This document shows positions 236-22,375 of a DNA stretch of 22,375 bases, piece by piece. This stretch comes from a virus. The notes below the pieces were generated by a model that saw only the letters and a list, made by a program, of their open reading frames with translations, did not search any database and was not told where the DNA came from. The position numbers and the translations under genes are program-made. How positions within the stretch are numbered: the stretch's first letter is position 1; each line of letters begins with the position of its first letter. The stretch is taken from the IMG/VR virus record IMGVR_UViG_3300027580_000508, positions 1 through 22,375 of that record. One strand, 5' to 3'.

Positions 236-2299
236 TTACCTCCTGTTTAGCCATGATGGTTTTCCGGATCCACTTCCAGGACCGGGCTTTGACTTTTTCT
301 GTTTGGGCTTTTGTGTTTTCTGTTGCTTGAATGTCCAGTGTTTGATCCCCATTTCATCAGCCAGTGCCAAAACATACACTGAACAGTCCCAACCGTGGTT
401 GGGCTGATTCGAGGGGCACATCCAGCGATTTTTCTGCTCATCCAGGTATTCCGTGCACATGTGCCGTGCCCAATCCCTGGTGGTCTCGCTGTGGTATCTC
501 CAAGCGCCGGGATCCAGGGGAGCTATTTGCAGCTTAGTGGACAGATTGTCTTTGTAGTGGTTAACGTCCAGCTGCAGGAGCTGAACCCCTCCGGGGATCT
601 GCTTGTTTGAACCGGGATAAGTCTCTATTTTGGACCATTTCCTGGGCCTGTTAGCTCTGGTATTCATGCCCTGGATCGGAATAACCCTTCCCCTGTGCGC
701 CCTGCAGAAATCGTATACTTCCGCAGTACGGTGCCCCATTGCGTCGATTGCTACCCTGGATACCTGGTACTCGTTTCCGTCCGGATCCTGATAACTGTCC
801 TCGAACAACACCTGGCGCAAGGAATCAAAGGCTGGATGGTAGGGGTATGACCTGTCCTGTAGTTGTTCCGGGTCCATCTTGGCCCAATCCGCCTTGATAA
901 ACCCTTCCCTTATCTGCCAGCTATCCTGGGCCACCCCATAACCAATTGCACGGATTTCATACCAAAATCCATTATCCTGAGTATCTACACCGGCCAATAA
1001 ACAGGCTACCTGGCCGTTGCCCGGCACCTGACCCCTGGGGCGCTCATCGCACAGTGCCAAAATCTGATCTTCCTGGCGCTCTACTTCGTATTCAACCCAG
1101 GGTTCGGCCATATAGTTGTTCATGAAATCTTTCAGTTCCGTCTTGTCATGCCTGGATCTCAAAAAGGCAGCTGCAATTTCGGACAGAGATACAAACGGAG
1201 ATATCCAGGACGGCAAATGGAAGCCTACCTTTTTCGGCCGGTATTTTCTCAGGTGGTCAAACAGTTCCAATCCGGAATTCGCTTCTCTCCACTGCCCTGC
1301 CCTAACTGCCCGGTCCCTTTGATAGTCTGACCAAACCGCTTCCGGATCCGACTGGCAAACAGAGCCAGCGCATTTGTACCAGGCCAGCTCCAGTGATTCT
1401 ATCCTGGTGGGGTCGCGCTCATCCTTCGGCCATTTTATTCCGTGCAAGCTGTCCTTCTCTCCCAGTTCCATCTTTTGCCTGTGTCCGCACAAGGGGCAGA
1501 CAACCTCGTAATGGAACACAGCTTCCGCTTCCTGGCTCATATAAGTCCATATAGGTGCCTGTTCTACTGTCGGGGTGGAGAGCTGCCAGATCTTCCGGCT
1601 CCACTTGTACGTCTGTGTACGTTTCTTCCCCAGTGGGATAGGGCCTGCTTCCCGCTTACTTGCAACCTCCGGGTATTTGTCTGTCTCGTCGAAAATAACA
1701 ACCTTGATCGGCTTGTTCCCCAACCTACTGGCAGATCTGGCCCAGGCCATAAAGATAAGCATGTGTTGCAGGTTGATCCGCAGGGAAGATGAATCGTCCG
1801 CCACCCCGGTCATGTAGGACCGCAACCTGGGGGAATTTTTAATCATGGGTTCCACGCGGTCCTTGTTGTTTTCCTTGGCCGTGACCTCATCCGGATAAAC
1901 GTACAGGACCGGCCCCGGATCCCGGTCTATCGTATACCCCACAAAATTATGAGCCGCTTCCGACCCGCCAACCTGGGGAGCCTTGCAAAGTCCTATCTCT
2001 TGTACGCTGGGAAAGTTTGCCGCATCCATGACCCCGGCCAAATATGGAGTGGTGTTGTTCCTCCAGGGACCTGGAAGTGAGGATTGAGTAACTACCCGGT
2101 GCCGCTCCGCCCACTCGGAAACCGGAACCTTTTTGCGCTTGCGCAGGACCTTGCGCTCGGCTTTGGTGAACCTGGTCGTGTGCGTAAAACCACCCTGTTC
2201 CCTGATGCGATTCTTTACTGACTCCGGCAGCCAGTCCGGAAAATTTACTTGTATGGTTTGGGGTTGTTTCTCTACCGGGAGTTCAGCTTGATTTTGCAT
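236..2299 (-). CDS. Phage terminase large subunit, lambda GpA-like
   Basis: A 687-residue motor and nuclease that packages phage DNA into proheads. Visible motifs: a Walker A variant 'KAPQVGGSE' at about 106-114, Walker B 'VVIFDETDKYP' at 200-210 with D204/E205, and coupling motif 'STPT' at 241-244. A zinc knuckle is formed by C268/C271 (CPLCGH) with C310/C315. The C-terminal RNase H-fold nuclease shows its acidic residues in 'AGVDTQDN' (D439), 'VAIDAMGH' (D519) and 'WDCSVYVLA' (D638). Length and motif order match the Terminase_GpA family, which in lambda makes cos ends. A Lys/Pro/Gly-rich tail follows the nuclease. The small subunit lies just upstream (2645-3226), separated by an AT-rich insertion. 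The ribosome-binding site at the chosen ATG is weak. Confidence 0.95.
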   Translation of the reverse strand: MQNQAELPVEKQPQTIQVNFPDWLPESVKNRIREQGGFTHTTRFTKAERKVLRKRKKVPVSEWAERHRVVTQSSLPGPWRNNTTPYLAGVMDAANFPSVQEIGLCKAPQVGGSEAAHNFVGYTIDRDPGPVLYVYPDEVTAKENNKDRVEPMIKNSPRLRSYMTGVADDSSSLRINLQHMLIFMAWARSASRLGNKPIKVVIFDETDKYPEVASKREAGPIPLGKKRTQTYKWSRKIWQLSTPTVEQAPIWTYMSQEAEAVFHYEVVCPLCGHRQKMELGEKDSLHGIKWPKDERDPTRIESLELAWYKCAGSVCQSDPEAVWSDYQRDRAVRAGQWREANSGLELFDHLRKYRPKKVGFHLPSWISPFVSLSEIAAAFLRSRHDKTELKDFMNNYMAEPWVEYEVERQEDQILALCDERPRGQVPGNGQVACLLAGVDTQDNGFWYEIRAIGYGVAQDSWQIREGFIKADWAKMDPEQLQDRSYPYHPAFDSLRQVLFEDSYQDPDGNEYQVSRVAIDAMGHRTAEVYDFCRAHRGRVIPIQGMNTRANRPRKWSKIETYPGSNKQIPGGVQLLQLDVNHYKDNLSTKLQIAPLDPGAWRYHSETTRDWARHMCTEYLDEQKNRWMCPSNQPNHGWDCSVYVLALADEMGIKHWTFKQQKTQKPKQKKSKPGPGSGSGKPSWLNRR

Positions 2300-6365: not shown

Positions 6366-6391
6366 AAATACCTCTGGACCTTTGGACCTTT

Positions 6392-6638
6392 GTGGAAGAT
6401 TGATGCTTTAAATCTTCCACTTATAATTTACTGTATTCTCTTTATTTTTTATCTTTTATGGAAGATTGGAAGATTTTTTATAAAAAAACGGAAAAATAAA
6501 AAAAAGATTTAATAAACATACGGAAAAATTACGCGCAATCTTCCAATCTTCCACGCATATATCTATCTTGTTAAATTTCAATCAGTTATTTTGTGGAGGA
6601 TTATTTATTCAATCTTCCACAATCTTCCAATCTTCCAC
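6392..6638. repeat. Iteron-like cluster, candidate replication origin
   Basis: Nine exact copies of the 9-mer AATCTTCCA (either strand) lie in this AT-rich gap between helicase and primase genes. Plus-strand copies are at 6411, 6537, 6545, 6611, 6621 and 6629; minus-strand copies at 6393, 6459 and 6467. Copies at 6392-6401 and 6411-6420 form a perfect 10-bp hairpin with a 9-base loop. A further direct repeat, ACGGAAAAAT, is at 6488-6497 and 6520-6529, 32 bases apart. Clustered iterons in AT-rich DNA beside replication genes suggest an origin or an operator array; I cannot separate these. No protein-coding sequence is supported here. Confidence 0.6.
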
Positions 6639-6643
6639 AAAGG

Positions 6644-8215
6644 CTAAAAAGGATCCGCAGCCCTCAAGGCAATACCCCGGTAGCTTATAGTACCCTTCTT
6701 CGACTTTTCGAACTTCTTGGCCAGCATCCGGCCAAAGGCGCGTTGAGATGGTACCTTTTTACCCACGTTTGCCTGGTACCATTCTTCGAAATCCGCATAT
6801 AAAACCGTACTGCTTGTTTCGTAGTTTTCCCCCATTATGCAGCGCTCCTCGATCCAATCTGCCAAAAGATCCTCATCCCTCCGGTATTCCGCCACTGCAT
6901 CCTTGACCTTGGGCGGCGGAGCCAATCCCAGTTTCTGATATTGAAGACATCCCCTGACTATCCAGGCCAATATCCCGGGAGCTTCCTGCCGGAACTTTGT
7001 TTTCAGGGTCCTGTCCTGGCGCCGCTCGTTCTGGCCCTGGGGCTCGCGATTCACGAAAGACAGTTCAAAAGGAATAAGATAAAGGCGCTCCCAAAATGCA
7101 AAATCATCCGCGGGAGCGTGTGGCCTGTTGTTGGTCAGGAGAAACAGGGAATGTGTGGCGGGGAATGTAGAGTTATACTTGTCATGCGGATTGCGGCCAA
7201 CCAAGGTATCGTCGCCGGTCAGCCACTTTACCCGGCTGGTACTTATCCTGCAGCCCTCGTCAGTCTCTGCGGCAAACGCCAGGCGCAGTCCCCGCAATGA
7301 CATTATGTCAGGTGATGGTCCCGAGCTGTTGCGGTTTTTCCCCTGGTCTACCAGCATATCGCTGGGTATCGGCGCGGCCAAGTCCCCCAGGATCCAGGAC
7401 AGGGTTTCCACTACCAGGCTCTTGCCGTTCCTGCCCTGCCCGGAAAACACGAAAAACGCGTTTTCCGAGTTCTTCCCAAGTATTGCAGCCCCAAAGACCC
7501 GCTGCAGAAAATCCACCATTTCCTGCTTGTCGTTCATGATTTCCAGCAAGGCGTTTTCCCAGGTGGGGCACTCGGCATCTATCCCTTGCCATTCCACTGG
7601 GCTGGCCATACTAAGATAGTCATCACGCCGGCCCTGTCTTACCTGGCCAGTGCGCAAATCTATGACTCCGTTCTGGCAAGCCAACAGATACGGATTCATA
7701 TCCATGTCGCTGCCGTCTATTCCCAGTCCTTCTTCGCACGTATGCGCAAAGGCAAGGGTGTTTTGCCTGCCTCTTGTGGATCTCAACCTATCAACCCGCT
7801 TATGCAGAGACTTTTTCAAGGCCTCTAGCCGCCTGTACTCGTCCTTGTTTCCGTCCCTTGCTGCCTGGCCTATTTGCTCATCTATCTTTTCAGCTTCCTG
7901 GAGATATCTAACCGCCAGGTCCTCGCAAGCCTGTAGACTGTGCTCCATCACATCCCGGCTCCAGTAATGCTCCTGCCACTCCATCCATTCGCCTGCCTGT
8001 TTATTGTAAATGAACCTTCCCCGCTGCAGAGCGGCGAAAAGCATACCGTCCCCGAGCTCGTTAGCCCGCAGGCACTGCATAACAAAATCGCTGCCAACAC
8101 CTCCGGAACCGCCACCACCTGACCCCCACTTCTCCATTTCCTGCTTACGCTTTTCCACCTGTTCCCGGATATTTTTGTTGGGATCCGAATTTTCCATATC
8201 AATTACCTGTCCCAT
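6644..8215 (-). CDS. SF3 replicative helicase, phage P4/D5-type
   Basis: A 523-residue helicase expected to unwind the phage origin and fork. After a charged N terminus with a Gly/Ser-rich linker (about 31-39), a D5_N-like region (about 170-215, 'LLACQNGVIDLRTG') leads to the SF3 core. Walker A 'GQGRNGKS' is at 259-266, motif B 'LAFAAETDE' at 312-320 and motif C 'SLFLLTNNRP' at 356-365, followed by 'FWERLYLIPF'. The C-terminal ~120 residues form a winged-helix-like region. There is no primase domain; that is supplied by 4917-6365. The ATG has only a modest AAAGGTG-type site. The iteron-like cluster lies directly downstream. Confidence 0.92.
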   Translation of the reverse strand: MGQVIDMENSDPNKNIREQVEKRKQEMEKWGSGGGGSGGVGSDFVMQCLRANELGDGMLFAALQRGRFIYNKQAGEWMEWQEHYWSRDVMEHSLQACEDLAVRYLQEAEKIDEQIGQAARDGNKDEYRRLEALKKSLHKRVDRLRSTRGRQNTLAFAHTCEEGLGIDGSDMDMNPYLLACQNGVIDLRTGQVRQGRRDDYLSMASPVEWQGIDAECPTWENALLEIMNDKQEMVDFLQRVFGAAILGKNSENAFFVFSGQGRNGKSLVVETLSWILGDLAAPIPSDMLVDQGKNRNSSGPSPDIMSLRGLRLAFAAETDEGCRISTSRVKWLTGDDTLVGRNPHDKYNSTFPATHSLFLLTNNRPHAPADDFAFWERLYLIPFELSFVNREPQGQNERRQDRTLKTKFRQEAPGILAWIVRGCLQYQKLGLAPPPKVKDAVAEYRRDEDLLADWIEERCIMGENYETSSTVLYADFEEWYQANVGKKVPSQRAFGRMLAKKFEKSKKGTISYRGIALRAADPF

Positions 8216-9327: not shown

Positions 9328-9481
9328 AAGTTGCGGACTCTTCTTCTGTCATTAAGTCGGCGTAATAAGCGGCATCATCTACCAGGTCCTTGTGCTCGCA
9401 TTCTTCTTTATCAACCGCATCCTGCTTGGCGATAATCAGAGCATTCAACGCCATGGCCTTGTAATATGATCTTTTGTCCAT
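9320..9481 (-). CDS. Small acidic hypothetical protein
   Basis: A 53-residue, mostly helical, acidic protein ending in a Glu-rich segment. The ATG at 9481 is preferred because AGGGG lies 6 bases upstream and the start then overlaps the end of the Cys-rich gene by a few bases. A longer reading from 9643 would run antisense-like through that gene and is not supported. The downstream ATG (9327) overlaps its TGA, so three genes form a tight cascade. Function unknown. Confidence 0.55.
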   Translation of the reverse strand: MDKRSYYKAMALNALIIAKQDAVDKEECEHKDLVDDAAYYADLMTEEESATYE

Positions 9482-9485
9482 TTGC

Positions 9486-9821
9486 TTACCCCTGTACACA
9501 AAAGATTTTTGATATTTGTGCCCAGGTACCGCAGTCCGGACATTTGACATGTTGAATAGTGTATTTTTGACCTCCAGTGGAAGTCTTTTCCACGTGCTTG
9601 CGTTCAACCTGGAAATTTCCCCGTTCACATGATTCAAAATCACAGGACGCTGTAATGATATAGTATGGTGGTTTCAGCTTGGATCTTCTTATATGTCCTT
9701 TTTTATGACATTCTGGATCCGCAACTGCACCGCATACTGGACAATCAGGACAACAACAAAAACACGGATCTAGCCCGCATATATCACAAGGCGGATCAAT
9801 ATCCTGAAATAAAAGTCCCAT
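9486..9821 (-). CDS. Cys-rich protein with three metal-binding clusters
   Basis: A 111-residue protein with 14 cysteines. Residues 12-38 form a dense cluster ('CDICGLDPCFCCCPDCPVC' plus C38). C60/C65 form a looser pair; C94/C97 ('CPDCG') with C108 form a C-terminal knuckle. It probably binds two or more zinc ions. The CCC run is unusual for a cytoplasmic protein. The start at 9821 is chosen for the AAAGGAGC site 7 bases upstream; an earlier ATG at 9854 lacks one. It lies just downstream of the structured non-coding region 9861-10190, whose transcript could include this leader. Function unknown. Confidence 0.7.
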   Translation of the reverse strand: MGLLFQDIDPPCDICGLDPCFCCCPDCPVCGAVADPECHKKGHIRRSKLKPPYYIITASCDFESCERGNFQVERKHVEKTSTGGQKYTIQHVKCPDCGTWAQISKIFCVQG

Positions 9822-9860
9822 AAGCACTGCTCCTTTAATAATTAGCTGTTTCAAAGCTTA

Positions 9861-10001
9861 AGGGGATGGCGGGTTGAGGTATTTGCGCAACCCCTGCGCT
9901 CACCCGCCTACCGGTAGTGACCGGGAGAACTTTATTCCTGATACCGGCGCGGATCGGGGTTGTACCAGGAACAAAGCCCGCGCCGCCCGGCTTTATCCCC
10001 T
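9861..10001. ncRNA. Candidate structured RNA domain
   Basis: This GC-rich stretch has no convincing protein but several nested perfect stems. An outer 7-bp stem (9861-9867 with 9995-10001) closes a junction containing four hairpins: 9868-9874 with 9902-9908 (7 bp), inside which 9885-9889 pairs 9895-9899; 9911-9915 with 9920-9924 (tetraloop); 9935-9940 with 9966-9971; and 9973-9978 with 9989-9994. Adjoining stems abut without gaps, which favours coaxial stacking. Stems pair on either strand; the minus strand matches the flanking genes. I do not recognise a known class. Confidence 0.4.
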
Positions 10002-10192
10002 CAAACTTCGAAGCTGCTCATTTATATAACTCTTTTTTTGGCCCCGGCCCGTCACAGCCAGGGCGGCAAATTAGGTGCAAGAAGTTCCGGCTTGCTAGAC
10101 CGGGCTCGTTATCTATTTACCAGGGCTACTGACGACGTGGACGGTGACGCGCCCAGCGCTCTCGCCCCGGCCGGCACGAGACACACCCGCCA
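10002..10192. other. GC-rich non-coding stretch continuing the structured region
   Basis: No protein-like reading frame is seen. It holds further self-complementary elements: AACTTC at 10004-10009 with GAAGTT at 10081-10086, a palindrome CTTCGAAG, and TCTCG/CGAGA arms around a GC-rich loop near 10160-10181. It may be a second domain of the same RNA as 9861-10001. Confidence 0.35.
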
Positions 10193-10387
10193 CTATTGAA
10201 TCCCAGGTTGGTATCCGGATCTGAATCGCTGGATCCGGAAATCCCATTCCTGGGTTGCTTTTTGTTTGGATTTCTTCAAACCGCTGCCGGTAAAAATCCT
10301 TCTGCATTTACTGCAGTTGTAATATCCTTTATGTTTGCTCAATATTGAGATCCTGCCCCTTAACTGGCATACCGGACAAAATTGCAT
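10193..10387 (-). CDS. Small zinc-ribbon protein
   Basis: A 64-residue protein with a classic N-terminal zinc ribbon: 'FCPVCQLRG' (C4/C7) and 'YYNCSKCRRIF' (C25/C28), followed by a basic tail. This is the transposase/TFIIS-like ribbon arrangement and suggests nucleic-acid binding. AAAGGAGC lies 4-5 bases before the ATG, almost identical to the site before the Cys-rich gene at 9821. It is followed by about 370 bases without a gene. Function unknown. Confidence 0.7.
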   Translation of the reverse strand: MQFCPVCQLRGRISILSKHKGYYNCSKCRRIFTGSGLKKSKQKATQEWDFRIQRFRSGYQPGIQ

Positions 10388-10401
10388 AAGTGCTCCTTTG
10401 C

Positions 10402-10707
10402 TTATATATCCTCGTCTAACCTTTCAGCGAACTCGCTGGCGCTAATGTTTCCTTCAACAAGTTCACTCATTAACGTCCTTTCCTTTTTGGGCTTTTTCTT
10501 TTTATTTGAATTTTTTGTTGATTGGGATATTCGTGTGTTCTCCAGGGCCTCGAAGATTTCGTCTTTTCTGTACCTGTATCCTACGCCACGGCCTTTGCCG
10601 AGGTAATAAGGCTGCACTCCCCATTCAGCCAATTTCTTCTTGGCTGTCTCGGGGTCCTTGAGCCTTAAAAATTCCGCGGCTTCCTGGGCTGTTAATAATT
10701 CAAACAT
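10402..10707 (-). CDS. HTH DNA-binding protein, excisionase-like
   Basis: A 101-residue protein. Residues 3-60 read as a winged helix-turn-helix of the excisionase type: 'LLTAQEAAEFLRLKDPETAK', then 'YYLGKGRGVGYRYRKDEIFEAL'. A Lys-rich linker (about 68-81) and a short acidic helix follow. It may direct excision with the integrase or act as an early regulator. The ATG at 10707 is preferred over an in-frame GTG at 10725, because GAGGAA lies 4 bases upstream and the ATG follows the preceding gene's stop by one base. Confidence 0.75.
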   Translation of the reverse strand: MFELLTAQEAAEFLRLKDPETAKKKLAEWGVQPYYLGKGRGVGYRYRKDEIFEALENTRISQSTKNSNKKKKPKKERTLMSELVEGNISASEFAERLDEDI

Positions 10708-11460: not shown

Positions 11461-11498
11461 AATTAACTTTCATCTTTTAAGATTTTTAGAGGTTGTTT

Positions 11499-11765
11499 AT
11501 GGCCGAATTCAATAAAGTCAAAGATCATGAAAACCTGGGTGTCCAATTAAGGGATATTTCCGAAAAGCTGGACGACCTTCAAAAAAGTACTTTTCAAGAA
11601 CGGCCACAAGTTTCTGAACAAGCAAGCAAAGCCCACAGTGCAATTACTGATTTACGCCATGAACTTGAGGAATTAGCCCGCAAGCAATTCCCGGATGTGG
11701 ACAGTTCCAGATTGCTTCACTGCTATTATCCACCGCGGGACAGAAGGGGCGGCCTAGAAACTTAA
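11499..11765 (+). CDS. Small coiled-coil hypothetical protein
   Basis: An 88-residue protein. Residues 1-65 are charged and heptad-like, predicting a coiled coil ('LRDISEKLDDL', 'AITDLRHELEELARKQF'). The last 22 residues look unlike the rest and are antisense to the coding end of 11644-12030, so the natural C terminus may have been lost. AGAGG stands 6 bases before the chosen ATG. Orientation is opposite to its neighbours. Function unknown; it may be a truncated relic. Confidence 0.5.
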   Translation: MAEFNKVKDHENLGVQLRDISEKLDDLQKSTFQERPQVSEQASKAHSAITDLRHELEELARKQFPDVDSSRLLHCYYPPRDRRGGLET

Positions 11766-12046: not shown

Positions 12047-12150
12047 TTTGGTCCAGCTAATGAACTTGTTTTATTGTTGTGGGTAAATAAACTAGACCAA
12101 ATTACGGACTATGTCAACAGTTTTTACGGACATTTTACAATATGACGGAC
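12047..12150. promoter_or_regulatory. Lysogeny switch operator region
   Basis: An inverted repeat TTTGGTCCAGC (12047-12057) and ACTAGACCAAA (12091-12101) matches at 9 of 11 positions. TTACGGAC occurs at 12102-12109 and 12124-12131, and TGACGGAC at 12143-12150 overlaps the repressor start. The copies are about two helical turns apart, as expected for cooperative repressor sites. No clear -35/-10 pair is visible for the repressor, which also lacks a ribosome-binding site. Confidence 0.5.
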
Positions 12151-12849
12151 AAAAATTCATTATCTGAACGATTACAATATTTTATCGAGCAAAAAGGTTT
12201 AAAAAGTCAAGACCTTGCTCGTACCGGAAATATTAAAAAACAAACTGTTTCCGATTATTTATCTGGGAAAACATCACCAAGTACAAAAGCCTTAAAAGGG
12301 TGGGTACAAAATTACGGACTTAACTTGAATTGGCTTATTACTGGAGAAGGCGAACCAGAGAATTCTCAAGCTTCTATGGCTATTCGAAACATACGGCCAA
12401 ACGCTGTGCCTGAACCAGCACCCCAAGTCTGCCCCACTTGCAACTCTAATTTTGCCGGCCACATTGTAGATGTACACTCGACGATCGGCGCCGGATCTCC
12501 AAGTGAATACTGGGAACCAAATCCGTTGTTTCAGGTTTGCATTCCAGAACGATTTTATTCGCAAAATCTGATGGTCATTAAAGTTGAGGGTACCAGCATG
12601 GAGCCTTTGATAAAAAAAGGCGCATACGTAGGTTTAGATACTGGCCACAATGGAGTCGTGGCTGGAGAAATTTATGGGGTAAGGGTCCCATATGAAGGAC
12701 TTACCTTGAAAAGAGTTTTCGTAGACCCGGAAAAGGAATGTTTACGCCTCCAATCCGAGAATCCTAAACACCCGGAACAAAATTTACCGATCGAAGGCCG
12801 GGAAGATTTAATTGTGGGTAAAGCGGTGTGGGTTATGCAGGAGATTTGA
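12142..12849 (+). CDS. CI/LexA-like repressor, HTH plus S24 peptidase
   Basis: A 235-residue self-cleaving repressor that would hold the prophage silent until SOS induction. The HTH covers about 8-55 ('SQDLARTGNIKKQTVSDYLS'). A linker with an odd 'CPTC' (97-100) leads to the S24 peptidase. The likely cleavage bond is in 'IGAGSP' (A117-G118), the nucleophile is S152 in 'VEGTSMEPL', and the general base is K190 in 'EGLTLKRVF'. It is divergent from 11644-12030. The ATG has no ribosome-binding site and may be translated leaderless. The next gene begins 11 bases after its stop, so the two form an operon. Confidence 0.92.
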   Translation: MTDKNSLSERLQYFIEQKGLKSQDLARTGNIKKQTVSDYLSGKTSPSTKALKGWVQNYGLNLNWLITGEGEPENSQASMAIRNIRPNAVPEPAPQVCPTCNSNFAGHIVDVHSTIGAGSPSEYWEPNPLFQVCIPERFYSQNLMVIKVEGTSMEPLIKKGAYVGLDTGHNGVVAGEIYGVRVPYEGLTLKRVFVDPEKECLRLQSENPKHPEQNLPIEGREDLIVGKAVWVMQEI

Positions 12850-17714: not shown

Positions 17715-18125
17715 ATGGACAGAGTGTCTCGAGAAAAAAGAAGCGAAATAATGAGCCTGGTAGCTCAAAAAAATACCAAACCCGAAATGATCGTCAGGAA
17801 ATTTTTACACTCGTTAGGCTTCAGATATAGATTACATAGAAAAGATTTGCCCGGAAAACCTGATATAGTATTACCCAAATACAAACTGGCCATTTTTGTT
17901 CATGGCTGTTTTTGGCATAGACATCCCGGATGCAAGAAAAGCACTATCCCATCGACAAATCGGGAATATTGGCTAAAAAAATTTCGGGACAACATCGAAA
18001 GAGACAAGAAAGTTCAAAAAGAGTTGAAAGAATTGAATTGGCTGCCTCTTGTTATTTGGGAATGTGAAACTTTCGATTCAGACGCTATAATCGAAAAAAT
18101 TGACGACATTTTAAAAATGAAGTAA
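17715..18125 (+). CDS. vsr: Vsr-type very-short-patch repair endonuclease
   Basis: A 136-residue endonuclease that nicks 5' of T in T:G mismatches formed by deamination of 5-methylcytosine. The N terminus 'SREKRSEIMSLVAQKNTKPE' is typical. The catalytic Asp is in 'GKPDIVLP' (D50), and the zinc/active-site signature 'HGCFWHRHPGC' (H63, C65, H68, H70, C73) is complete. The 'REYW...KF..N..RD' helix follows. It is first in an operon with a C5 methyltransferase, the standard genetic link, protecting the methylated sites from mutation. GAGGA lies 8 bases before the ATG. Length matches the family. Confidence 0.95.
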   Translation: MDRVSREKRSEIMSLVAQKNTKPEMIVRKFLHSLGFRYRLHRKDLPGKPDIVLPKYKLAIFVHGCFWHRHPGCKKSTIPSTNREYWLKKFRDNIERDKKVQKELKELNWLPLVIWECETFDSDAIIEKIDDILKMK

Positions 18126-18135
18126 ATTCCGGATT

Positions 18136-19185
18136 ATGCGAATTCAAGGAACAGACTTATTTTGTGGAGTTGGCGGACTCACTCACGGAATGCGTTTGGA
18201 AGGCATCGATATTTCTCATGGAATAGACACGGACCCATGGTGTCATTATCCTTTTGAAGCCAACAACGATTCCACATTCATACTTGAGGATATCAGAAAC
18301 TTAAACGGCAAGGATTTAAGCAATCTCTTTTCAAAAAACAATACGAAATTGTTGGCTGGTTGCGCTCCTTGTCAACCTTTCTCCAATTATGTAAAAGCCA
18401 ATGTAAAGGAAAAAGACTCCAAATGGAGCCTTTTATCTGAATTTTCGAGATTGATTAAAGAAACGCGTCCGGAATTGGTGACAATGGAGAACGTTGTCAG
18501 ATTGAAAAGACACGATATTTATTCGGATTTCATAAACGAACTCAAATCCATGGGTTACTGGATTACGGAACGAGAAGCCTACTTTCCAGATTACGGAGTA
18601 CCGCAAATCAGGACTCGATTGATCTTATTGGCATCTTTGTTGGGCCCCATACTACTTGAACCGCCCAAATACGATCCGGAAGAGTACCGAACGGTTAAAG
18701 ACGCAATCTCTCATTTGCCAAAAATTGAAGCCGGAGAAACTTCAAAATACGATACTTTGCACAGATCCAGCCAAATGTCTGAAAAGAATTTCAAGAGAAT
18801 CAGAGCTTCAAAACCAGGCGGTACTTGGCGGGACTGGAACAAAAATCTTGTAACGAAATGTCATACTAAAGAAAAAGGCAAATCCTATCACAATGTTTAC
18901 GGTCGTATGGAATGGGACAAGCCTTCACCAACTATAACCACAAGATGTACTGGTTTCGGAAACGGACGATTCGGACATCCCGAACAAGATAGGGCCCTCT
19001 CGTTAAGAGAAGCGGCTTTGCTTCAAACGTTTCCCGAATATTACTCGTTTGATAAAGACGAAAAAAACCTTAAAATGACACCTATAGCTAGATTGATAGG
19101 AAACGCTTTACCTGTCGATATAGGCAAAGTATTAGCAAGATCTTTTAAAGCTCACTTGCGGAGATATGGTTATGACGGAACGTGA
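18136..19185 (+). CDS. DNA (cytosine-5) methyltransferase
   Basis: A 349-residue C5 methyltransferase that transfers methyl from S-adenosylmethionine to cytosine in a specific DNA site. Motif I 'DLFCGVGGL' (7-15), motif IV 'GCAPCQPFS' with catalytic C79, motif VI 'ENV' (118-120), motif VIII 'QIRTR' (157-161), motif IX 'SLREAALLQTFP' and motif X 'LIGNALPVDIG' are all intact. The variable target-recognition region (about 190-265) gives no readable specificity. The gene starts 10 bases after vsr and overlaps the GHKL-nuclease gene by 14-20 bases. It would protect host and prophage DNA from that nuclease. The ribosome-binding site is weak, so coupling to vsr is likely. Confidence 0.95.
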   Translation: MRIQGTDLFCGVGGLTHGMRLEGIDISHGIDTDPWCHYPFEANNDSTFILEDIRNLNGKDLSNLFSKNNTKLLAGCAPCQPFSNYVKANVKEKDSKWSLLSEFSRLIKETRPELVTMENVVRLKRHDIYSDFINELKSMGYWITEREAYFPDYGVPQIRTRLILLASLLGPILLEPPKYDPEEYRTVKDAISHLPKIEAGETSKYDTLHRSSQMSEKNFKRIRASKPGGTWRDWNKNLVTKCHTKEKGKSYHNVYGRMEWDKPSPTITTRCTGFGNGRFGHPEQDRALSLREAALLQTFPEYYSFDKDEKNLKMTPIARLIGNALPVDIGKVLARSFKAHLRRYGYDGT

Positions 19186-21166
19186 ATATAGAATAAAAAT
19201 GAGTTTGAACGTATTGAACCATTTAGGGTTGAATCTATACAGCAATATCCCGGCGGTATTATCAGAAGCCGTGGCCAATTCTTGGGATGCCGATGCAGAA
19301 AACGTTTATATAGAAGTAAATAGAGATGAAGGATATGTATCCATAGAAGATGACGGACACGGAATGACTTATGAAGAAGTGAACGAAAAATATTTGAATG
19401 TGGGATACCCTAGAAGGGAGAGGGAAGAAAATTACACTCCTCATTTTAAGAGACCCGTAATGGGCAGGAAGGGAATAGGAAAATTATCTTTGTTTTCAAT
19501 TGCTGAAACAGTTGAATTATATACAGTCAAAAACGAAGACGAGAACGCTCTCAGAATGAATGTCGAAGAAATGCGTAAAAGCGTTGAAACTCAAGCAGAG
19601 ACCTATCATCCTGACCCGATTGAAAATACTGAAAAAGAATCCGAAGGTACTAAAATTCTTTTGAAGCAACTTAAAAAAAGATTGACTCATACAGAATCTT
19701 CTTTACGTAAAAGATTAGCTAGAAGATTCAGTATAATCGGAGACGAATACAAATTCAACATATATATAAACAATAGTATAGTAACTTTAGAAGACCGAGA
19801 TTATTTCCACAAGGTTCAATACTTATGGCGTTACGGAGAGGAATCCGAAAAATACAAAAATTTGTGTACAAACCTCAAAGAAGAAGAAAATCGCCCAGAT
19901 TATATAGACACAGATGATGATAGCAATGAATACAAAATACATGGATGGATTGGAACTGTAAAAAATTCCGGAGACTTAAAAGACGAAAAGGAAAATCTAA
20001 ATAAAATAGTAATCATGGTGAGAGGGAAAGTAGCTCAGGAAGACATACTTGAGGACTTCAGCGAAGGAGGGATTTATTCCAAATACGTGTTTGGAGAAAT
20101 AAATGCCGATTTTCTGGATCGAGACGACCTAGAAGACATAACTACCACTTCGAGACAAAAAATAATCGAAGATGATCCTAGGTATCAAAAACTAAAAAAT
20201 TTCATAGGGGAAGAGTTGAAGCACATAAGAAGCAAATGGACCGACTTGCGAAATGAACGTGGCACTCAAGAAGCACTGGAACTTGAAACTATAAAAGAAT
20301 GGTATGAAAGCTTGGACAAATCTTTGAAAAACAAGGCAAAACAACTTTTCGGTAAAATAAATCAAATACCGATTGAACCTGAAGAAGATAAATTCATGCT
20401 TCTGCAATATGGAGTTTTGGCTTTTGAAAGCCTTAGATACAAAGATCAGTTGGATGCTTTAGAAAATATCAGTCCAAACAATCTTCCTGAATTAACTAAG
20501 ATATTATCCGAATTCGACGACATAGAAGCTTCTCTATATCACCGAATCGCTTCCGAAAGAATCAGAATCATAAAGACTCTTCAAGATAAGGTAGAAGAAA
20601 GCGTTTTAGAAAAAGTTATTCAAGATTATATATTTAATCATTTATGGATCTTAGATCCTTCTTGGGAAAGAGCTACAAAAAATGTATATATGGAACAACA
20701 AGTACAAAAAGCTTTTGAAGATGTTGACAAAAAAGAATTAACCGAAGAAGAAAAGAAAGGTCGTATTGATATTAGGTACGTTACAACTTATGGCAAACAT
20801 TTGATCATTGAATTGAAAAAATCTGATAGGGCGGTGAAGACTACAGAGCTAGCGGACCAAATCGACAAGTATAGAAGCGCTCTTCAGAAATGCCTAGTAA
20901 AATTGGGGTATGACAATCCTCATATCGAATGCGTATGTATACTTGGTACTCAACCGCCCGATTGGTCAAGAGCCGGAGGACAAGAAACATCAAAAAACAT
21001 ACTTCAAGCGGTAAATGCAAGAATATTATTTTATCAAAACTTGTTAGAGAACGCATATTCCCAATATCAAGAATACTTACAAGCAAACGAAAAAGCAGGA
21101 CGAATTACCAACTTTGTAGAGAAAATAGGCCAAGAAATAAGCTCAAAGACTCCAAAAAACAATTAA
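19172..21166 (+). CDS. GHKL (MORC/MutL-like) ATPase fused to PD-(D/E)XK nuclease
   Basis: A 664-residue restriction component. The GHKL ATPase shows the N box 'LSEAVANSWDADA' (E32/N36), the G1 box 'DDGHGM' (60-65) and the ATP lid 'GRKGIGKLSLF' (98-108). A central transducer and helical region follow. The C terminus holds a PD-(D/E)XK fold with 'GRIDIRY' (D533) and 'LIIELKKS' (E547/K549). MutL/MORC-type ATPases fused to or linked with nucleases beside Dcm-type methylases and Vsr are a described restriction-modification class. The second ATG is chosen as start because GGAG lies 8 bases upstream; the first (19166) is only 2 bases from it. The start overlaps the methyltransferase end. Confidence 0.9.
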   Translation: MTEREYRIKMSLNVLNHLGLNLYSNIPAVLSEAVANSWDADAENVYIEVNRDEGYVSIEDDGHGMTYEEVNEKYLNVGYPRREREENYTPHFKRPVMGRKGIGKLSLFSIAETVELYTVKNEDENALRMNVEEMRKSVETQAETYHPDPIENTEKESEGTKILLKQLKKRLTHTESSLRKRLARRFSIIGDEYKFNIYINNSIVTLEDRDYFHKVQYLWRYGEESEKYKNLCTNLKEEENRPDYIDTDDDSNEYKIHGWIGTVKNSGDLKDEKENLNKIVIMVRGKVAQEDILEDFSEGGIYSKYVFGEINADFLDRDDLEDITTTSRQKIIEDDPRYQKLKNFIGEELKHIRSKWTDLRNERGTQEALELETIKEWYESLDKSLKNKAKQLFGKINQIPIEPEEDKFMLLQYGVLAFESLRYKDQLDALENISPNNLPELTKILSEFDDIEASLYHRIASERIRIIKTLQDKVEESVLEKVIQDYIFNHLWILDPSWERATKNVYMEQQVQKAFEDVDKKELTEEEKKGRIDIRYVTTYGKHLIIELKKSDRAVKTTELADQIDKYRSALQKCLVKLGYDNPHIECVCILGTQPPDWSRAGGQETSKNILQAVNARILFYQNLLENAYSQYQEYLQANEKAGRITNFVEKIGQEISSKTPKNN

Positions 21167-21292: not shown

Positions 21293-22375
21293 ATGTCCGT
21301 TTACAAACGCAAAGACCGAAAAAATGTTTACCAGGTAGCTTACCGGGAACCTGGATCCAAACGTATAATAAAAATAGATTTTACTGGGCCGAATGCAAAA
21401 CAAGACGCCGAGATCTTCGAACAAGAGATCAAGCTGCAAAAAAAGAAAAATCCTTCAAAGTTAGCATCTAATGAGTCGACATTAACCCTGGAAAAGATAG
21501 TTTTCCTATACATTGCGGCAACTAAGCCCTACAAATCCAAATCCAGCATAAAAAACGAATCCTGTCATGCCAAAGCGATACTGGAACATATTGGGGACGT
21601 CTCCGTAGATGATGTTACAGTTAAGCACTTGCAAAAAGTCAAGCAAGATCACCTGGAAAAAGGGATATCTGTATCCACTTTTCAAAGGCGCTGGAACCTG
21701 TTGCGTGCCGCTATGAATTGGGCTGTTGACGAGGAGTTTATTGAAGCCAACCCTTTGGCCGGATACAAAATCAAAAAACCCCAAAGAGAACCTATTTTAC
21801 CCCCTAGCACTCAAGAAATCCAGGCATTATTTCAGGCCAGCCCTCCACACTTGAAACGAATTATTTTGCTGGTTTTTTACACTGGTGCAAGACCTGGCCC
21901 CAGCGAATTGTTTAATTTGCAGTGGCAGAGCGTGGACTTACAAAACGGATGGCTATATATGTTGTCTGCAAATAAAGGAGGCAAAATCTGGAGGGAGATA
22001 CCCATACATGAAAAATTACACAGCTGTCTGTCGGCCTGGAAAGAAGAGGACAATAGACTGAACTTAAATACTGATCACGTTATACATTTTCGAAATAGAC
22101 CCGTGCAATCGATAAAAAAATCCTGGGCAAAAGCTAAAGAAAATGCTGGGATAAAGCGCCAGCTACGTCCTTACGATTTACGCCATGCATTTATTACTTC
22201 CGCGATTGACGCGGGCGCAGACGTACAAGCCGTTGCAAACATGGCCGGTCACAGCGACATGAAAACAACTTTGGAACATTACCGGCATATAAAAAGCGAA
22301 GTTAAAAAAACTTCAATTGACAGGCTTCCTAACGTCGATCTGGTGGAACAAAACGGTGGAACAAAAGGGGGGTAA
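21293..22375 (+). CDS. int: Tyrosine recombinase (phage integrase)
   Basis: A 360-residue site-specific recombinase for prophage integration and excision. An N-terminal arm-binding domain (about 1-55) and a core-binding SAM-like domain (about 65-165) precede the catalytic domain. The latter shows R200 ('YTGARPG'), K228 ('ANKGGK'), 'RPYDLRHAF' with R297 and Tyr in place of the usual first His, H320 ('AGHSD') and nucleophile Y330 ('LEHYRH'). The gene is complete, ending at the last base of the window. The 126-base AT-rich gap before it shows no clear promoter or ribosome-binding site. Its position at the end of the element implies an attachment site close to the right edge. Confidence 0.93.
   Translation: MSVYKRKDRKNVYQVAYREPGSKRIIKIDFTGPNAKQDAEIFEQEIKLQKKKNPSKLASNESTLTLEKIVFLYIAATKPYKSKSSIKNESCHAKAILEHIGDVSVDDVTVKHLQKVKQDHLEKGISVSTFQRRWNLLRAAMNWAVDEEFIEANPLAGYKIKKPQREPILPPSTQEIQALFQASPPHLKRIILLVFYTGARPGPSELFNLQWQSVDLQNGWLYMLSANKGGKIWREIPIHEKLHSCLSAWKEEDNRLNLNTDHVIHFRNRPVQSIKKSWAKAKENAGIKRQLRPYDLRHAFITSAIDAGADVQAVANMAGHSDMKTTLEHYRHIKSEVKKTSIDRLPNVDLVEQNGGTKGG

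Follow-up and report, generated by a model that had tools for sequence, protein, structure and literature searches.

The DNA analysed here, a stretch of 22,375 nucleotides from the viral record IMGVR_UViG_3300027580_000508 (the window), belongs to a prophage in which integrase, repressor, helicase and terminase genes are all present (Table 1). The genes surrounding positions 9861-10192 are all carried by the minus strand, and the minus strand is therefore the sense strand for an RNA of this region. The region separates two genes for zinc-type proteins. The upstream zinc-ribbon protein shows a weak match to the IS1595-type zinc ribbon and the downstream Cys-rich protein a weak match to the Ogr/Delta zinc finger, both under the cut-off, and no relatives of either protein were found in the collections searched. 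The listed open reading frame (ORF) of the Cys-rich gene runs on to a TTG at 9854. The ribosome-binding leaders of the two flanking genes are very similar (AAAGGAGCA...CTTATG, 9821-9845 and 10388-10410).

A first-pass annotation described the region as the interruption of an operon with gaps otherwise below 50 bases. This is incorrect, as minus-strand ORFs are separated by long gaps at 6366-6643 and 11461-11643 too. The former (278 bases) lies just downstream of the D5 helicase gene, and the nearby minus-strand segment 6361-6550 folds with z -3.9 in the scan of 740 windows described below. Elsewhere, the interval between repressor and integrase contains cargo (17715-21166) encoding a Vsr endonuclease, a C5 cytosine methylase and a HATPase-type type II restriction enzyme, which together form a prophage-borne restriction-modification module. 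Within the restriction-enzyme gene, the plus strand of 20041-20230 has an unusually stable predicted fold (z -4.5, same scan).

At the 330-base scale, 9861-10192 has the highest GC content of the window (0.606, compared to a mean of 0.428), in agreement with its initial description as GC-rich. It was also correctly described as gene-free: no frame of the stretch has a relative in Pfam, PHROGs or phages, the translated longer open frames belong to no family found there, and no conserved protein reading frame appeared. The helices reported on the plus strand are all present, namely the 7-bp outer stem (AGGGGAT 9861-9867 with ATCCCCT 9995-10001) and the hairpins GGCGGGT/ACCCGCC (9868-9874/9902-9908, with GCGCA/TGCGC nested inside), CCGGT/ACCGG (9911-9924) and CGGCGCGG/CCGCGCCG (9945-9952/9978-9985). 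The outer stem is the inner end of longer inverted arms at 9840-9867/9995-10022, inverted repeat I1, with 28-nt arms that are 79% complementary. As a plus-strand RNA, 9861-10192 does not fold significantly (z +0.47, with 70 of 100 shuffles folding as well), and the minus strand of roughly the same stretch reaches z -2.0. Of the RNA fold proposed upstream of the Cys-rich gene, the unusual folding stands, but it belongs to the minus rather than the plus strand and is confined to 9836-10026.

Table 1. Features of the prophage and of the predicted RNA element (positions in the window).
Feature	Position	Strand	Remarks
GpA-type terminase	236-2299	-	
D5-type primase/helicase	6644-8215	-	
Cys-rich zinc-type protein gene, downstream of the RNA	9486-9821	-	111 aa from ATG
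Shine-Dalgarno AAAGGAG and start codon of the Cys-rich gene	9821-9836	-	A of ATG at 9821
Predicted structured RNA domain, three-way junction with long closing helix, 191 nt	9836-10026	-	MFE -88.9 kcal/mol
P1 3' arm	9837-9867	-	inverted repeat I1 and pairing probabilities
P3 arm	9868-9908	-	7 + 2 + 5 pairs, probability >0.9; apical loop GGGGU
P2 arm	9910-9991	-	
AACCCC, P2 loop	9956-9961	-	complementary to P3 apical loop GGGGU(U)
P1 5' arm, closing helix	9995-10022	-	inverted repeat I1 and pairing probabilities
GC-rich (0.62) spacer	10027-10192	-	z -0.75; alone, not unusually structured
Zinc-ribbon protein gene, upstream of the RNA	10193-10387	-	
Separate hairpin, 3' end of zinc-ribbon ORF	10204-10253	-	z -3.56
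S24-type repressor	12142-12849	+	
Integrase	21293-22375	+	

In a first shuffle test, the minus strand of 9836-10026 gave z -6.67, a value that is somewhat flattered by the choice of these boundaries after the inverted arms had been seen. None of 3,600 dinucleotide shuffles was as stable (z -6.3; best shuffle -78.7), while fitting a Gumbel distribution to these shuffles yields the more cautious p = 6e-4. Furthermore, when 190-nt windows were scanned without guidance along both strands (740 in all), the minus strand of this place ranked first (z -6.0). The plus strand is likewise more stable than its shuffles (z -3.44), and the minus-plus difference in stability of -14.1 kcal/mol is reached in 0.06% of the shuffles. 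The predicted fold of the element is real, strand-specific and statistically strong, though unsupported by comparison. In general, the folding energy of a single sequence says little about function (Rivas and Eddy, as cited in PMC3150283), and the "new phage RNA" of the first-pass annotation is a candidate based on single-sequence thermodynamics.

In the predicted structure, the closing helix P1 comprises 26 pairs, of which 17 are contiguous (mean probability 0.99), followed by 4 and by 5 outer pairs (about 0.8). The core of P2 is an uninterrupted 15-bp helix (9962-9976/9930-9944) with two G-U pairs and a mean probability of 0.98, whereas its base is predicted with a probability of about 0.6 and competes with the 8-bp GC helix CGGCGCGG/CCGCGCCG. 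The apical loops of P2 and P3 could form six Watson-Crick pairs, a number that shuffled loops reach in 1.6% of cases (p = 0.016), which is suggestive of a possible kissing interaction between the two arms. On the minus strand the fold contains eight G-U pairs, and the ungapped P1 arms contain one A-C mismatch. A neutral DNA palindrome would be expected to show an even split, and under strand-neutral decay of a DNA inverted repeat the ratio of 8 to 1 has a one-sided p of about 0.02, a count to be read with the caveat that the fold itself was selected to include G-U pairs; the bias is suggestive of the minus strand but not decisive. The outer end of P1 abuts the start of the Shine-Dalgarno sequence of the Cys-rich gene, which lies outside P1 and partly inside a small predicted hairpin of its own.

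At the other end of the region, the separate hairpin is near-palindromic (CCCAGG..TATCCGGATC/GATCCGGA..CCTGGG) and overlaps the last codons of the zinc-ribbon ORF. As the weak PHROG match of the zinc-ribbon protein stops near residue 42, the tail of this ORF may be read-through into the hairpin element. The segment 10141-10330 is the second strongest place of the 740-window scan, with z -4.7 on both strands.

The Rfam covariance-model search (Rfam 15) that had been proposed for the region gave no match at the gathering cut-off across the whole window to any family, riboswitches, ribozymes, GOLLD and ROOL included, and at a relaxed threshold the best sub-threshold hit had E = 2.2. Neither a tRNA nor a tmRNA was found. 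The element is single-copy in the host genome, and DNA similarity searches against phages, plasmids, 60 relatives and 395 genomes of the phylum returned short chance matches only. A covariance model built on the single sequence (R1) found no homologue over 101 relatives, 348 genomes of the class and the fetched loci. Several candidate loci were rejected: L046, an R1 match, sits in coding sequence; L055 aligns mainly via a single hairpin that resembles a terminator, its remaining helices being broken; L053, L054 and L058 each match over one 19-base stretch only, apparently in coding sequence; and the single 30-base stretch of L057 was counted as a chance match. Likewise, searching viral contigs for exact words of 18-22 bases and genome contigs for one of 18 bases recovered the window itself and chance matches, and a scan of genome contigs for relatives by protein returned nothing. 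Exact words and a single-sequence model detect near relatives only, which limits what this absence means. The element and both neighbouring genes are missing from the phages that encode a relative of the D5 helicase (about 50% identity) or of the 149-aa early protein. As no homologue was found, there is no covariation evidence for or against the proposed RNA, nor for or against the conserved, covarying aptamer upstream of related genes that marks a cis-regulatory leader or riboswitch.

Several known classes of non-coding elements were considered. A retron ncRNA was dropped, as no reverse transcriptase match occurs among the window ORFs scanned; attC was dropped for want of the core motif and ornate RNA for want of a model match. 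The pRNA of phi29 contains a three-way junction and loop-loop interactions (PMC5340915). By prediction, the element would resemble the phi29-type pRNA in having a three-way junction, a long terminal helix and complementary arm loops, a likeness of topology only, in which the loop complementarity spans 6 nt (p = 0.016). However, the element has no Rfam match and is situated in an early regulatory operon rather than beside packaging genes. Membership of the pRNA family, which goes with a phi29-type packaging ATPase and genome organisation, fails on the packaging genes, the terminase of the prophage being of the GpA type. With GOLLD and ROOL the element shares its nature as a (here predicted) structured RNA of a phage or prophage and possible kissing loops (PMC12286853), but it is far smaller, has no Rfam match and has no tRNA nearby.

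That phages do encode ornate, multimerising structured RNAs such as GOLLD and ROOL (PMC12286853) lends some plausibility to a trans-acting phage small RNA, which would be released from the operon mRNA by processing and bind a phage or host partner. The compact closed fold and the complementary apical loops are consistent with this; neither a promoter nor a terminator of its own was recognised, however, and there is no Rfam match and no second occurrence was found, so that we regard such an RNA as unlikely. In this reading, the apical loops of a rigid three-way junction would pair either in cis or between molecules, as an oligomer. More doubtful still is the idea that the element stands for a class of phage RNA not described before, a molecule of about 190 nt that has a three-way junction, a long closing helix and kissing loops, is released from an early operon and acts in trans or as an oligomer. 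The fold could instead be the by-product of a DNA structure, either the relic of a short inverted-repeat insertion (MITE-like) or another DNA palindrome. Like MITE-like elements, it is short, non-coding and GC-unlike its surroundings (0.60 in a window of 0.43), and has terminal inverted repeats, in the form of the I1 arms; the better-than-shuffled folding of the plus strand also fits. In contrast to such elements, which occur in several copies in a genome or its relatives, it is a single copy in the host genome and occurs in none of the 60 relatives or the 395 genomes of the phylum. In addition, no clear target-site duplication is present, the AT-rich TTTA on both sides being out of register with the arm ends, and the stability is strand-asymmetric. 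Such a DNA origin is rather unlikely.

Remnants of a decayed or foreign gene, rich in GC and folding by chance, would account for the base composition and the lack of genes. A 25-nt, 96% match (L005) inside an ORF for a Gp38-like tail adhesin in a related genome, where the common reading frame gives GGAGFVPG, could be taken in favour of this. However, chance alone would yield about 0.02-0.15 such matches in the genomes searched, and this one was rejected as a true relative; a decayed gene was likewise dropped, as the open-frame translations have no relatives. Since the fold also lies far outside the shuffle range, this explanation is improbable. The plus-strand RNA of the original description, which would be antisense to the operon, can draw on the helices of the first-pass annotation, which pair on the plus strand as well, on the z-score of that strand over 9836-10026, and on TTGCTTTTTG, which comes after the 10204-10253 hairpin on the plus strand and is terminator-like by eye only. 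Against it, the whole stretch 9861-10192 folds no better than shuffled on the plus strand and the element folds much better on the minus strand, while the only plus-strand promoter-like site nearby is weak (9408-9436), with fewer such sites found than chance expects. This makes an antisense RNA scarcely credible.

The best explanation is a cis-acting intercistronic RNA of the prophage early operon, forming part of the minus-strand polycistronic mRNA, to which we assign a probability of roughly 0.4. A role within the operon mRNA appears most likely because of the strand, the position between stop codon and Shine-Dalgarno sequence, the length of the duplexes and the finding of no promoter or terminator specific to the element, the last of which is as expected for part of a longer mRNA. 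The strength of the fold, both against shuffles and among the 740 windows, argues for this reading, as do the preference for the strand of the flanking genes and the location of the element directly before a Shine-Dalgarno sequence and ATG. Against it stand the lack of any homologue, and hence of covariation, and the limited weight of single-sequence folding energy.

Phages such as T7 have RNase III processing hairpins between early genes. The element resembles these in being a long sense-strand duplex, by prediction only, between genes of one early operon, but it is larger (about 190 nt) and branched, belongs to an unrelated phage and is known from its predicted fold only. To our knowledge, an RNase III site is not recognisable from sequence alone. 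By calculation, the transcript of 9836-10026 would adopt the three-way junction with its long closing helix, and the near-uninterrupted duplexes, with 17 and 15 contiguous pairs, would lend themselves to RNase III cleavage and could shield the resulting ends from exonucleases, which would be the simplest mechanism for such duplexes. Cutting would leave two separate messages, one for the regulatory genes close to the repressor and another for the downstream Cys-rich and replication genes. The element may also set the translation level of the Cys-rich gene, as its Shine-Dalgarno sequence begins where the helix ends. Local processing or control of the mRNA is thus the most likely role.

If the fold is not functional, it usefully illustrates how strongly a single sequence can signal a fold that comparison does not back. 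If it is functional, the early control region of a prophage whose relatives in databases are few would gain a structured RNA not described before, and the element offers a defined sequence of 191 nt for probing.
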